Assembly: GCA_012517815.1 (NCBI GenBank)
Contig: JAAYUF010000113.1
Coordinates: 1 to 64,000 of the forward strand
From: Clostridiales bacterium
GTDB lineage: Bacteria > Bacillota > Clostridia > Christensenellales > Aristaeellaceae
Length of the DNA stretch: 64,000 nt
Direction: 5' to 3'
Both the position numbers and the translations under genes were made by a program. The notes below the pieces were generated by a model. It saw only the letters and a program-made list of their open reading frames with translations. It made no database searches and was not told the origin of the DNA. The stretch's first letter is position 1, and the number at the start of each line of letters is the position of its first letter. This document shows, one piece after another, positions 1,865 through 45,322 of the stretch.

Positions 1865-2062
1865 GTAGAGCCCTTCCTCGCCTCGCCCCGGCAACTTGCC
1901 GAAGCGTTGATTCGCACAGTCATGATAACGTTGGAAACGCCCGTTATCTTCCCGCGCGGGCTTGCCCGGCGCGAAAACACGGATAGGGGAAACCCTGATT
2001 CATCCGGGTTTCCGGTTGAATCAGGGGGATACGGCCGGGTTTCCCGGCAGTCCGGGGGGGTC

Positions 2063-2285
2063 GGGAACCAGCCGGTTCCCGACCCCTCGGACTGCCGAAA
2101 AGCCCCCGCCGCGGCGGCGTTGGGTCAAGGGTTTCACCCTTGCGGGGTTTGGGGCGAAGCCCCAAAGCCATATGCTGAAGCATTTTACCAAAGCGAGCGA
2201 ACAGCCCGAAGGGCGATGAGGCGAGCGGCACTCCGGATTGCATGGGTTCTTTGACGGCCTGAGGCTCGGGAACCAACCGGTTCCC
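2063..2285 (+). repeat. Dispersed structured element, copy 1 (terminal palindromes GGGAACCnnCCGGTTCCC)
   Basis: High similarity to reverse complement of 17952-18169; hairpin-rich core between two near-identical palindromes. Confidence 0.8.
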
Positions 2286-2515
2286 AAGCCCGAAACTTTC
2301 GAGAAAATTCACGCGCCTTCGGCCGTGCCCCATGACGCTTCCGGCGCTTGCGCAGGATGGCGGGCGGGTGATACGGGAGCCTCCGGCGGGCAGGAACCTC
2401 CCCACCCGCGTTCCAATCAGGGCGCGCGCTTGCCCGGTTCCTGCGCGGCGCAGGCGGGCGGCGCGCCTCCCCGACCGCTGCGCGTCGGCGGTCCGCAAAC
2501 CCCGCGCGCTGCGCG

Positions 2516-3310: not shown

Positions 3311-3596
3311 GCGCAGGAGTCGCAACGACTGAGCGCAGGTTGCCACACGACGACGTGCAGGAGTCGGAACGGCTTCCCGCAGGATGCCACACGACGACGC
3401 GCAAGAGTCGAAACGACTTCGCGCAGGTTGCCACACGACTTCGCGCAGGTTGCCAAAGGACGATGCGCGAGATGCGAAATGACTTCACGCAGGATGCCAC
3501 ACGACGACGCGCAGGAGTCGAAACGATTTAGCGCACATTGCCACACGAGGACGCGCAGGAGTCGAAACGGCTTCCCGCAGGTTGCCGCATGATTTT
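3311..3596. repeat. 22-bp tandem array, 13 units, two subtypes largely alternating (44-bp higher-order repeat)
   Basis: Units GCAGGAGTCGAAACGACTTCGC and GCAGGTTGCCACACGACGACGC, exact 22-nt phase throughout. Confidence 0.95.
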
Positions 3597-14455: not shown

Positions 14456-15250
14456 TCAGGCGGTTTCCGTCTCCGGCGGCAACCCGTACAGCCTTTCCAC
14501 GTTGGCGGTCGTCTGCGCGATCAGCGTTTCCAGCGGCACATCGCGCAGGGTGGCGACCATCTCCGCCACATGGCGCACGTAGGCCGGCTCGTTGCGCCTG
14601 CCGCGCACGGGCACGGGCGCCAGGTAGGGGCTGTCGGTTTCCACCAGCAGGCGGTCGGCAGGCACGTAGCGGGCTGCCTCCTGCAAATGGCGGGCGTTGC
14701 GGAACGTGACCGAGCCGGAAAAGGAGATGTAAAACCCCATCGAAAGGTATTCCCGCGCGCTTTCCACGCTCCCGGTGTAGCAGTGCAGCACCCCGGCAGG
14801 CAGCCGCCCGCGGTGCGCGCGGAAGAGGTCCGTCACGTCCCCGTGGGCGTCCCGCACGTGAAACACGGCGGGCACGCGCTGCTCGTAGGCAAAATCCAGC
14901 TGGGCCGCAAAGGCCGCTCGCTGCGCATCGCGCGGGGAGTGGTCGTAGTAGTAATCCAGCCCTATCTCCCCCACGCCCACGATGCGCGGCTGGGAAAGCC
15001 ACTGCGCAAGGCGGGCGAGGGTATCCGGCGCAAACGTGGCGGCCTCGTGCGGGTGCACGCCCACCACGCCGTAGACGTTCGGGTGCGCGGCCACAATCGC
15101 TTCGATGCGTTCGCAGGTGGCTATATCGCTGCCCGCGAGGATGCAGCGGCCCACGCCGGCTTCCTTCATGCGGGCCAGCACGGCCTCCACCTCGCCGGCA
15201 AAGCGCTCGTCCTCCAGGTGGCAGTGCGAATCGATCAGGCTTGCGCTCAT
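14456..15250 (-). CDS. tatD: TatD family metal-dependent hydrolase
   Basis: LIDSHCHLEDERF, VGEIGLDYYYDHSPRDAQRAAFAAQLDFA, LVETDSPYLAPVPVRGRRNEPAYV. Confidence 0.93.
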   Translation of the reverse strand: MSASLIDSHCHLEDERFAGEVEAVLARMKEAGVGRCILAGSDIATCERIEAIVAAHPNVYGVVGVHPHEAATFAPDTLARLAQWLSQPRIVGVGEIGLDYYYDHSPRDAQRAAFAAQLDFAYEQRVPAVFHVRDAHGDVTDLFRAHRGRLPAGVLHCYTGSVESAREYLSMGFYISFSGSVTFRNARHLQEAARYVPADRLLVETDSPYLAPVPVRGRRNEPAYVRHVAEMVATLRDVPLETLIAQTTANVERLYGLPPETETA

Positions 15251-17256
15251 CGCACGGTCGCCCCATCCTCCATGCCGGGGGCGACGGACACCAGCTTAAG
15301 CACGGTATCCGCCTTGTCGGAGGCGCACAGGATCATGCCTTCGCTGAGCACGCCGCGCAGCTTGGCGGGTTTGAGGTTCGCCACCAGCACCACCTGCCGG
15401 TTCAGCATCTCCTGGGGGGTGTAGAACCTGGCGATGCCGCTGACCACGGTGCGCTCCGGCGCGTCCGCGCCCAGGCTCAGGCGGAGCTTGAGCAGCTTGT
15501 CGCTGCCCTCCAGCTTTTCGCAGGCCAGCACGCGCGCCACGCGCAGCTGCACGCGGGCGAACTCGTCGATGGTGATCAGCCCGTCGCCGGCGGGCGCTTC
15601 GGTTTTCGGGGCGGCCGCGGCGGCTTTGCCTGCTCCGGCCTCGGGCGCGACTTTCGGGGCGGGTTCGGGCTTCGCCTCCGCCTTGGGGGTAGGCAGGATA
15701 TCCGCCAGCTCTTTTACAATGTCGATGCGGGGGAAGATCGCCTCGCCCTTGTGTACGGCGATGCCCGCCGGCAGCAGGCCGAAGGCGCTCAGGGAGTCCA
15801 TGGTCATGCGGGTTTCGTCGGTCAGGCCCAGCTGCTCGAAAATTCGGCCGGGCGTGCGCGGCATGGTGGGCTGGATGAGCACGCCCACGAAGCGGATGCT
15901 CTCGCACAGCACGTACAGTACGGTTTTCAGGCGTTCGCGGCCTTCTTCGGTCCTGCACAGCACCCAGGGGGCCGTCGCGTCGATGTAGCGGTTGCACTCG
16001 CCGATCAGCGCCCAGATGTCGCTCAGGGCGGTGGAGTATTGCAGCTCGTTCATCTGCGCGCGCACCTTCGCGGGCGTGGCTTCCGCCAGCGCGATCAGCG
16101 CCTTGTCCAGCTCGTCGTAGCGGCCGGGCTGGGGCACCCTGCCGTCGAAGTACTTTTCCACCATGGCGACCGTGCGGCTGACCAGATTGCCCAGATCGTT
16201 GGCCAGATCGGCGTTGATGCGCTTGAGCAGCGCCTCGTAGCTGAACTGCCCGTCGCTGCCAAAGGGCATCTCCCGCATGAGGAAGTAGCGGATGGCGTCG
16301 CTGCCGTAGCGGTTGCAAAGCGCCACGGGGTCCACCACATTGCCCAGGGATTTGCTCATCTTCATGCCGTCCAGCACCAGCCAGCCGTGGCCGAACACCT
16401 GCCTGGGCAACGGCTCGCCCAGCGCGTGCAGGATGATGGGCCAGATGATGGTGTGGAAGCGGATGATCTCCTTGCCCACCAGATGGATATCGGCAGGCCA
16501 GTAGCGGCGGTAGGGCTCGTCGTGCGCGGTGCCGTAGCCCAGAACGCTGATGTAGTTGGTGAGCGCGTCCAGCCAGACGTACACGGTATGCTCCGGATCA
16601 AAATCCACCGGAATGCCCCACTTGATGGAAGTGCGGCTGACGCACAGGTCGTTGAGGCCCGGGCGCAGGAAGTTGTTGAGCATCTCGTTTTTCCGGCTGG
16701 CGGGCTGGATGAACTCCGGGTGCGTTTCGATGTAGTCGATCAGCCAGTCCTGATACTTGCCCAGCTTGAAGAAGTACGCCTCCTCGCGGGTTTTTTCCAC
16801 GGGGCGGCCGCAGTCCGGGCAGCAGCCGTCCTTCAGTTGCAGCTCGGTAAAGAAGCTCTCGCAGGGCGTGCAGTACCAGCCCTCGTAATAGCCCTTGTAG
16901 ATGTCCGCCTGCTCGTAGAGCTTGCGGAAAATCTGCTGAACGCAGTCCACGTGCCGCTGGTCGGTGGTGCGGATGAAATCGTCGTAGGCCACGTCCATCA
17001 GCTGCCACAGGCTTTTGATGCCCGCGACGATGGTATCCACATACTGCTGGGGGGTCACGCCCCGATCCTTCGCCTTGCGCTCGATCTTCTGGCCGTGCTC
17101 GTCGGTGCCGGTCACGAAATACACGTCGTACCCTTCCTGCTTTTTGAAGCGCGCCATGGTATCGGTGGCGACGCTGCAATAGGCGTGGCCGATGTGCAGG
17201 TTATCGCTGGGGTAATAGATCGGCGTGGTCACGTAGAAAGTTTTCCGTTCGGACAT
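15247..17256 (-). CDS. metG: Methionyl-tRNA synthetase with C-terminal tRNA-binding domain
   Basis: FYVTTPIYYPSDNLHIGHAYCSVATD, KMSKSLGNVVDP; C-terminal VQLRVARVLACEKLEGSDKLLKLRLSLG. Confidence 0.97.
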   Translation of the reverse strand: MSERKTFYVTTPIYYPSDNLHIGHAYCSVATDTMARFKKQEGYDVYFVTGTDEHGQKIERKAKDRGVTPQQYVDTIVAGIKSLWQLMDVAYDDFIRTTDQRHVDCVQQIFRKLYEQADIYKGYYEGWYCTPCESFFTELQLKDGCCPDCGRPVEKTREEAYFFKLGKYQDWLIDYIETHPEFIQPASRKNEMLNNFLRPGLNDLCVSRTSIKWGIPVDFDPEHTVYVWLDALTNYISVLGYGTAHDEPYRRYWPADIHLVGKEIIRFHTIIWPIILHALGEPLPRQVFGHGWLVLDGMKMSKSLGNVVDPVALCNRYGSDAIRYFLMREMPFGSDGQFSYEALLKRINADLANDLGNLVSRTVAMVEKYFDGRVPQPGRYDELDKALIALAEATPAKVRAQMNELQYSTALSDIWALIGECNRYIDATAPWVLCRTEEGRERLKTVLYVLCESIRFVGVLIQPTMPRTPGRIFEQLGLTDETRMTMDSLSAFGLLPAGIAVHKGEAIFPRIDIVKELADILPTPKAEAKPEPAPKVAPEAGAGKAAAAAPKTEAPAGDGLITIDEFARVQLRVARVLACEKLEGSDKLLKLRLSLGADAPERTVVSGIARFYTPQEMLNRQVVLVANLKPAKLRGVLSEGMILCASDKADTVLKLVSVAPGMEDGATVR

Positions 17257-17474
17257 GGGGGGATGCCTCCTCTGTTCTGGCCGTGGCGGCCGGTGCGCCG
17301 GCTTTGAGATAGGCCCGTCGGGTTGGGGAGAACCGCGTTGCTTGCGCCGCGTGTCGGGGGCAGGCGTCGCCGCTCCCCCGCCGCTTTGGGCGGGCGTCGC
17401 CGTTTCCGCGCCGCGCGGCCCTCGCCTGCGCCGTTCAGCCGACGGGGCCGCCGGGGCCGGAAACACAAAGCCCG

Positions 17475-17716: not shown

Positions 17717-17951
17717 CGGACAATTCCGCCGCGGCCGCCGGCAGGCCTGCGGCGGCGGGTTGCCCCGGCAGGGGCGGAAACGCGGCTCCGCGAGCGGGAA
17801 ACCCCCGCGAAAGCGTTGCAGGCCGCGATCGGACTTAGGCCCGCTCGCGCGCCGGGAACCGCGTGCCCCAAAGGCGAGGCGGAGTGCCCGCCCGCCTTTC
17901 TTGCGCCGGTACGGCCGCTCACCGGCCGGACCGGAAACAGGGCAAGAGAAA

Positions 17952-18169
17952 GGCGGCAGGCCTGCCGCCTGCCGCCCCAGGCTGTCAAGGAACCCATACA
18001 CTAAGCAGTGCCGCTTGCCTCATCGCCATTCGGGCGGTTCGCTTGCTTTGGCAAAAGGCATCGGCATATGGCTTTGGGCCTCCGCCCAAACCCCGCAAGG
18101 GTTTCCCCCCGGCCCCAATTCCGCTGCGGCGGGGGTTTTTCGGCAGCCTGAGGCGGCAGGCCTGCCGCC
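17952..18169 (-). repeat. Dispersed structured element, copy 2 (terminal palindromes GGCGGCAGGCCTGCCGCC)
   Basis: Reverse complement aligns with 2063-2285 through the whole core; both ends carry the same perfect 18-bp palindrome. Confidence 0.8.
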
Positions 18170-18877: not shown

Positions 18878-18906
18878 TTGACAGACGCGTCCGCCGTGCG
18901 TATAAT
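18878..18906 (+). promoter_or_regulatory. Consensus sigma-A promoter (TTGACA-17-TATAAT)
   Basis: Direct match upstream of tetR-family gene. Confidence 0.85.
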
Positions 18907-18907
18907 C

Positions 18908-18933
18908 ATAACGCCGTTATGTAACGGTGTTAT
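18908..18933. promoter_or_regulatory. Inverted-repeat operator, probable TetR autoregulatory site
   Basis: ATAACGCCGTTAT/GTAACGGTGTTAT directly downstream of the -10. Confidence 0.65.
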
Positions 18934-18958
18934 GAATTTAGACAGGAAAGGAGGCGCC

Positions 18959-19585
18959 ATGGCCAAACAGATTAAGGGTGTGTCGGATCGCCTGTTGGCG
19001 TTCGCGCAGGCGGAATTTCTGCAAAAGGGCTTTCTGGACGCTTCGCTGCGCACCATTGCGGAAAACGCGGGAACCAGCACGGGTTCCATCTACACGCGCT
19101 TTGGCGACAAGAACGGGCTGTTTTCGGCGATCGTAGGGCCCGTGGCGGAAGGCTTTCTGGCCGCTTACCGCGAGGAGATCGACGCATTCAACGAGGGAGA
19201 GCCAAAGCCCGTCGAGCAGATGCTTCGTCACACCGCCGGGAGGCTGAACATGACGGCGGACGCCATCTACGATCACTTGGACGAGTTCAAGCTCCTGATC
19301 TGCCGCTCCGAGGGCTCGGGGTATGAGAACTTCCTCCACAGGCTGGCCCAAATCGAGGCGGAGCAGACCGAGCGCTACCTCCGATGGATCGGAAGCGACG
19401 CGATGGAGAGCGGCCGCCTTTCGCCCGCGCTCCTGCACATGCTGTCAAGCGCGTTCTGGGCGGGCGTTTTTCAGACGGTGGAACACGACATGTCCAAGGA
19501 AGAGGCGCTCGTCTACATCGCGCAGCTCAAGCGGTTTTACCGCCATGGCTGGCAGGACATTCTTCAGCCTGGTCCGGATTGCTGA
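18959..19585 (+). CDS. TetR/AcrR family transcriptional regulator
   Basis: HTH: RLLAFAQAEFLQKGFLDASLRTIAENAGTSTGSIYTRFGDKNGLFSAIV. Confidence 0.92.
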   Translation: MAKQIKGVSDRLLAFAQAEFLQKGFLDASLRTIAENAGTSTGSIYTRFGDKNGLFSAIVGPVAEGFLAAYREEIDAFNEGEPKPVEQMLRHTAGRLNMTADAIYDHLDEFKLLICRSEGSGYENFLHRLAQIEAEQTERYLRWIGSDAMESGRLSPALLHMLSSAFWAGVFQTVEHDMSKEEALVYIAQLKRFYRHGWQDILQPGPDC

Positions 19586-42648: not shown

Positions 42649-42809
42649 CGGGAAATCCTACAGGGGGTTCTGCCGGTGCCGCTCAGGGCCTGTCTGGTTT
42701 ACGCTGGGGCGGGGAAACGGCATGGGTGCCGGCGACGGACAAGGCCGGTGCGCGGCATGGGTTCGGCTTGGTTCAGGTAAGTGGCGCGGGTTGCGGGTTG
42801 CTCGGTACA

Positions 42810-43296
42810 GGCAGCCGGAACGCGTTGCGGGCCTTGCAGCATGGGCGGCCGGAATGCGTTGCGATCCTCTCGGTACGGGCGACCGGAATGCGTTGCGGGC
42901 CTCGCACCATGAGCGGCCGGAATGCGTTGCAGACCTTGCTGCACAGGCGGCCGGAACAGATTGCGAACCTCTCGGTACGGGCGACCCGAATGCGTTGCGA
43001 GCTTTACATCATAGGCGACCGGAACAGGTTGCGTTCTTATCAGTACGGGCGGCCGGAATGCGTTGCGGGCCTCTCGGTACGGGCGACCCGAATGCGTTGC
43101 GAGCTTCACAGCATAGGCAGCCGGAACGCGTTGCGGGCCTTGCAGCATGGGCGGCCGGAACAGGTTGCGATCCTCTCGGTACAGGGGACCCGAATACGTT
43201 GCGGGCTTTACAGCATAGGCGACTGGAACAGGTTGTGGGCCTCTCGGTACAGGCGGCCGGAATGCGTTGCAGACCTTGCTGCACAGGCGGCCGGAA
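42810..43296. repeat. 34-bp tandem array, 14 full units + partial
   Basis: Consensus GGCGGCCGGAATGCGTTGCGGGCCTCTCGGTACG, exact 34-nt phase, constant 5' half and several 3' tail subtypes. Confidence 0.95.
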
Positions 43297-44929: not shown

Positions 44930-45205
44930 GTTGTGCGTGGAGACCCGCTTGGCGGCTTGCGACGGCCACAAACCAAGCCACGGCGGCTGCGAACCGCGCG
45001 GTCACCGGATGCGGAAAAGCAACCGAAGCCGTGCGCGGAGAACCGCTTGGCGGCTTGCGACGGCCACAAACCAAGCCACGGCGGCTGCGAATCGCGCGGT
45101 CACCGGATACGGAAAAGCAACCGACGCCGTGCGCAGAGAACCGCTTGGCGGCTTGCGACGGCCACAAACCAAGCCACGGCGGCTGCGAACCGCGCGGCGA
45201 TCGGC
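44930..45205. repeat. 98-bp tandem repeat, ~2.8 copies, in AKR leader
   Basis: cgcttggcggcttgcgacggccacaaaccaagcc starts at 44946, 45044, 45142. Confidence 0.93.
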
Positions 45206-45322
45206 AGCGGTCCTCAAACGGGCATTACCGGCGGCGAACCGCGCGCCGGCCGGAAGCGAAACAGGAACAAACGTCGGCCGCAAACCGCCGCGCGCAGGCC
45301 GGAAGCGAAGGAGGTAATCCGC

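Follow-up and report, generated by a model that had tools for sequence, protein, structure and literature searches.

Palindromes beside an IS1182-type MITE in a Clostridiales genome are very probably target-site duplications of entire hairpins

The window, a stretch of 64,000 nucleotides from the Clostridiales contig JAAYUF010000113.1, contains two copies of a short repeat accompanied by palindromes (Table 1). Copy 2 is located between metG (15247-17463, minus strand) and a TetR-type gene (18878-19582). Exactly two matches to the 18-bp palindrome GGCGGCAGGCCTGCCGCC lie in the window (17952-17969 and 18152-18169), against an expectation of 0.00 in shuffled sequences. In a BLAST search with the copy-2 region, copy 1 was recovered as an inverted copy at 2085-2265 (82% identity over 181 bp, E-value 2e-47). 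The palindromes had originally been read as the termini of the repeat itself. However, the element begins with CAGGCTGTC at 17978 and finishes with GGCAGCCTG at 18150, and both palindromes lie outside these ends. The hairpin of copy 1 differs from that of copy 2, and each is present on both sides of its own element; the left and right hairpins of copy 1 are distinguished by one compensatory C-G to G-C change. The left hairpin of copy 2 is terminator-like when read on the minus strand, and no proven gene end was found beside it. The 8-bp extension TGCCGCCC next to this hairpin is probably a slippage duplication of TGCCGCC (7 bp).

Table 1. Features of the two repeat copies in the window.
Feature	Position	Strand	Remark
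Copy 2, left copy of the probably duplicated target hairpin, AGGCGGCAGGCCTGCCGCC	17951..17969	.	repeats 18151-18169 exactly
8-bp extension TGCCGCCC from the left hairpin to the element end	17970..17977	.	sequence; not beside the right hairpin
Copy 2, 173-bp non-autonomous element (MITE)	17978..18150	+	family member; ends CAGGCTGTCAAGGAACCC / GGGTTTTTCGGCAGCCTG
Copy 2, left terminal inverted repeat	17978..17995	+	
Copy 2, right terminal inverted repeat	18133..18150	-	
Copy 2, right copy of the probably duplicated target hairpin	18151..18169	.	matches left copy AGGCGGCAGGCCTGCCGCC
Copy 1, 174-bp MITE (L016)	2088..2261	-	82% identical to copy 2
Copy 1, hairpin at the element's left end, GGGCTTGGGAACCGGTTGGTTCCCGAGCC	2263..2291	.	
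Copy 1, hairpin at the element's right end, GGGGTCGGGAACCGGCTGGTTCCCGACCC	2058..2086	.	

Several further features were noted in the window. Upstream of metG, a sigma-70-type promoter match is located at 17716-17689 on the minus strand, which is perfect at 12/12 positions (TTGACA-16-TATAAT). An Rfam search of the whole window returned two tRNAs and nothing else. Tandem repeats are present at 3311-3586 (22/44-bp units, GCGCAGGAGTCGAAACGACT...), at 42807-43296 (14 diverged copies of a 34-bp unit with a 102-bp higher order), and at 44933-45226 (three units of 98 bp that are 80-95% alike, with a related half unit after them).

The source assembly contains 44 matches to the repeat, and the members of this family measure about 174 bp (171-178 bp). 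As short elements without a transposase gene, they are classified as MITEs. They are bounded by CAGGCTGTCNAAGAACCC and GGGTTTTTCGACAGYCTG, which form an imperfect inverted repeat and thus provide 18-bp terminal inverted repeats (TIRs). Scanning the genome for TIR-like ends yielded 99 sites, compared with 3 for a reversed-pattern control. Of five other genomes of the genus, two contain the MITE core. In two same-genus genomes it also forms tandem arrays of 3-7 copies with units of 147-167 bp (L076 at G003:C5:51800-54200, L077, L086, and L094), and a terminator-like hairpin is often found within or next to the unit. A hybrid in a same-genus genome, L090, joins an IS-type end to a MITE core and carries CCGCCCACYTGGGCGGG on both sides. 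Viral contigs contained neither a relative of the insertion sequence described below nor one of the MITE ends.

Two hairpins are located in the core of the element. The differences between copies 1 and 2 in these hairpins are as originally described, but their interpretation as compensatory changes does not extend to the family. Among 41 aligned copies, the hairpins are paired in 93.6% of cells, while only one double-sided change was found, which is not above the level in shuffled columns, and the covariation term of RNAalifold is near zero. The core hairpins may be simply inherited sequence.

Target-site duplication predicts that the left and right flanks of the same copy resemble each other. 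For the 42 copies with both ends defined, the 60 bp beyond the left end were aligned with the 60 bp beyond the right end. The median score was 43 for flanks of the same copy and 17 for pairs from different copies (n=1,722), which is the comparison of intra-copy with inter-copy identity that the original prediction had proposed. Its claim that the ends are alike within a copy and unlike between copies is borne out by both window copies, and family-wide by 32 of the 42 bounded copies, in which the same-copy score exceeds the 99th percentile of the different-copy scores. The shared segment usually abuts the TIR without a gap. Examples are L036, with GCGCCGCCTGCTTGACGCAGGCGGCGC twice, and L028, with ACGCGGGCCGCATGTGCATGCAGGCCCGCGT twice; L025, L027, and L011 behave likewise. 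The other 10 of the 42 copies show no clear left/right repeat. Three of these (L010, L022, and L033) form nests with further copies or an insertion sequence, or share the hairpin of a neighbour; in the remainder no left/right repeat is recognisable. The orientation of the MITE relative to the T-tract of the terminator is unbiased (12 versus 15).

The source genome also harbours a multicopy insertion sequence (IS) whose ends are near-identical to those of the MITE, namely CAGACCGTCAAAGAACCC on the right and CAGACCGTCAAAAAAGCC on the left. This IS is known from its ends alone, as its body is absent from the assembly; many source contigs stop within it. Flanks were read for eight left and nine right ends, and each of the eight left flanks pairs with a right flank bearing the same complete palindrome (contigs C11-C102, C31-C17, C65-C66, C70-C162, C33-C134, C42-C92, C163-C51, and C137-C106). 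Its target sites are palindromic, as reported for some IS1182 members. The 66-aa C-terminus of the IS matched no family model by itself and is 69% identical over 35 aa to a protein of Chakrabartyella piscis. The MITE end CAGGCTGTCNAAGAACCC resembles not only CAGACCGTCAAAGAACCC but also CAGACTGTCAAA and TTTGACAGTCTG of the C. piscis IS. Furthermore, contig C2 starts with a relic that shares an identical end with the MITE and contains transposase fragments matching PF13751. Judging from these sequence likenesses, an insertion sequence of the IS1182 family most likely mobilises the MITE in trans. Other transposases with PF13751 and PF05598 are encoded at G000:C8:1-1700 (L047) and G000:C57:98000-100200 (L059); the ends of the former element are different and GTTGACAAAGTC-like.

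Using the 66-aa C-terminus as a query, 80 loci were obtained, mainly in Clostridia. The complete genome of C. piscis BP5G (CP092441.1) contains 11 copies of a 1,484-bp IS (one of 1,483 bp) at 10 sites, with the ends CAGACTGTCAAA.../...GGGTTCTTTGACAGTCTG. Each of the 11 copies sits between two copies of a complete terminator-like hairpin, with duplications of 20-36 bp. The transposase of 473 aa is assigned to the IS1182 family by NF033551, scoring 372 bits against a cut-off of 270 bits, and a relative from Gemmiger reaches 391 bits. Pfam domains in the transposases of the relatives are PF13751 (DDE_Tnp_1_6), PF05598 (DUF772), and PF01609 (DDE_Tnp_1). A hairpin directly behind the IS end was observed in many further species. 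In three related IS copies, L126, L131, and L188, the hairpins differ between the two ends. Such unlike ends require recombination between copies or an assembly error, and these copies are possibly recombination products.

An occupied and an empty site can be compared in Streptococcus suis. In the phage record YS387, a related IS, whose transposase shares 47.7% identity with that of C. piscis, lies within the pgmA terminator, preceded by AAAGAGCCGCGAAAGCGACTCTTT and followed by AAAGAGCCGCGAAAGCGACTCTTTTTGG. The same end of pgmA in five other records has a single hairpin and no IS. Thus, the hairpin is present even where the element is absent, and its full 24 bp were duplicated. Empty sites for the copies of the source genome were sought in genomes of the same genus and none were found, as the orthologous genes diverge too far downstream; none were found in Gemmiger and Fournierella genomes either.

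The palindromes beside the MITE are thus very probably target-site duplications of entire hairpins, often terminators, generated through insertion of an IS1182-type MITE. Target-derived ends had been one of the explanations offered originally, and it is this one that agrees with the flanks of the in-genome IS (8/8), of the C. piscis IS (11/11), and of the MITE (32/42), as well as with the empty site in S. suis. Terminus conversion and selection for end-to-end identity, which had been offered beside it, become superfluous given target-site duplication. That the palindromes are element ends homogenised within each copy by one of these two processes is also highly improbable on other grounds. It would account for ends that are alike in any one copy but unlike in different copies, and four double (paired) changes between some left and right hairpins speak for it, although these stand against 14 broken pairs and are too weak for a claim of selection. 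Against it, the hairpin is already present at the element-free S. suis site, the TIRs are internal to the palindromes, and the same flank pattern surrounds an IS with a different interior. Chance insertion near hairpins that are common in the intergenic DNA of the genome can practically be dismissed: the source genome is GC-rich, and such DNA is rich in hairpins, but it is contradicted by exact repeats that abut the TIRs in most copies and by their occurrence at 11/11 copies in the complete genome of a different species.

The original prediction had also pointed to a REP-associated tyrosine transposase. A REP/BIME-like element moved by TnpA_REP (RAYT) would share the dispersed palindromes, and just one Y1 transposase (IS200/TnpA_REP-like, 166 aa) is encoded in the genome (G000:C21:1844-2200, L234). 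However, REP/BIME elements use another transposase class and have neither TIRs nor a long target duplication, whereas the elements observed here have long direct repeats, as well as long TIRs that match those of an IS1182-type IS. To our knowledge, HUH single-strand transposition produces no such duplications, and a REP/BIME-like origin is very improbable, even slightly more so than homogenised ends. Instead, the likely partner is a DDE element of the IS1182 family whose terminal inverted repeats are almost identical to those of the MITE.

How an IS1182-type element would duplicate an entire hairpin is suggested by the lengths of the duplications. In a set of 44 from the MITE, the IS, C. piscis, and S. 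suis, for which boundaries were taken from direct-repeat alignment in the case of the MITE and palindromes were entered by hand in the other three, the lengths range from 20 to 52 bp with a median of 29. In 33 of the 44 duplications the predicted stem starts at the very first base, and in 32 it extends to the last; the loops vary, and the targets have no evident common sequence. The MITE or IS would insert into a hairpin and copy the target stem-loop from foot to foot onto both flanks. Because the stem mostly spans the duplication from its first to its last base, we infer that integration takes place at the feet of the two hairpins in an extruded cruciform; such an attack at the hairpin feet seems reasonably probable from the sequences. 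Alternatively, a transposase dimer could read the palindrome in double-stranded form and make an unusually wide staggered cut, with no hairpin extrusion. Whole-palindrome duplications would presumably be expected equally in this case, and the flank data alone do not discriminate between the two. Nevertheless, a fixed protein dimer should give a narrow spacing, while the observed lengths of 20-52 bp track the hairpin, the loops vary, and a common target sequence is missing. A staggered cut by a dimer is therefore rather unlikely, albeit the least unlikely of the alternatives.

With cruciform-foot integration as the favoured step, it appears somewhat probable that this IS1182 clade is structure-directed as a whole, with the target hairpin setting the length of the duplication and a home in a terminator leaving a stem-loop on each side. 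At a terminator target, the terminator stem-loop would be kept on either side of the element, which may make insertion nearly harmless. Target-site duplication accounts for a puzzling class of repeats in gut Clostridia. More than 40 natural targets and an empty-site comparison are now available for the branch of IS1182 transposition that duplicates the stem-loop, and structure-directed target choice is open to direct test, since duplication length tracks hairpin length.

Targeting of palindromes by IS1182 elements is already known, and the duplication outcome adds to it. IS1272 and TnSha1, IS1182-family elements of staphylococci, target hairpins that lack a sequence consensus and are often terminators, and one hairpin can be used repeatedly (PMC5678879, PMC4923244). 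The elements described here share with them the hairpin or terminator targets and, in the relatives, an IS1182-family transposase. In the IS1272 subgroup, the target stem-loop is removed or replaced and a duplication is absent (PMC4923244, PMC5678879), whereas here the whole stem-loop is duplicated. Stem-loop duplication was drawn beside the IS1272 replacement as a possibility, the hypothetical "pathway b" (PMC5678879). Similar duplications may already stand in ISfinder, which would limit the novelty of this outcome. MITEPye1 of Paracoccus yeei is a non-autonomous intergenic element of 159 bp with 18-bp TIRs like those of IS1182-family ISs, 4-bp direct repeats, and 1-3 copies per chromosome (PMC11578231). 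It is likewise a short IS1182-related element, but the repeats here comprise whole hairpins instead of 4 bp. ISEfa7-type IS1182 elements of enterococci have a different TIR, CAGACTGTAGACAAA, and the ISEfa7 transposase shares 48.5% identity with its C. piscis counterpart. In the stretch read for the Enterococcus faecium copies L204 and L227, hairpin duplication was not found. An ISEfa7-type copy in E. raffinosus (L226) is flanked on both sides by TGGTATATCCATCGGATATGC, which is able to form a hairpin.
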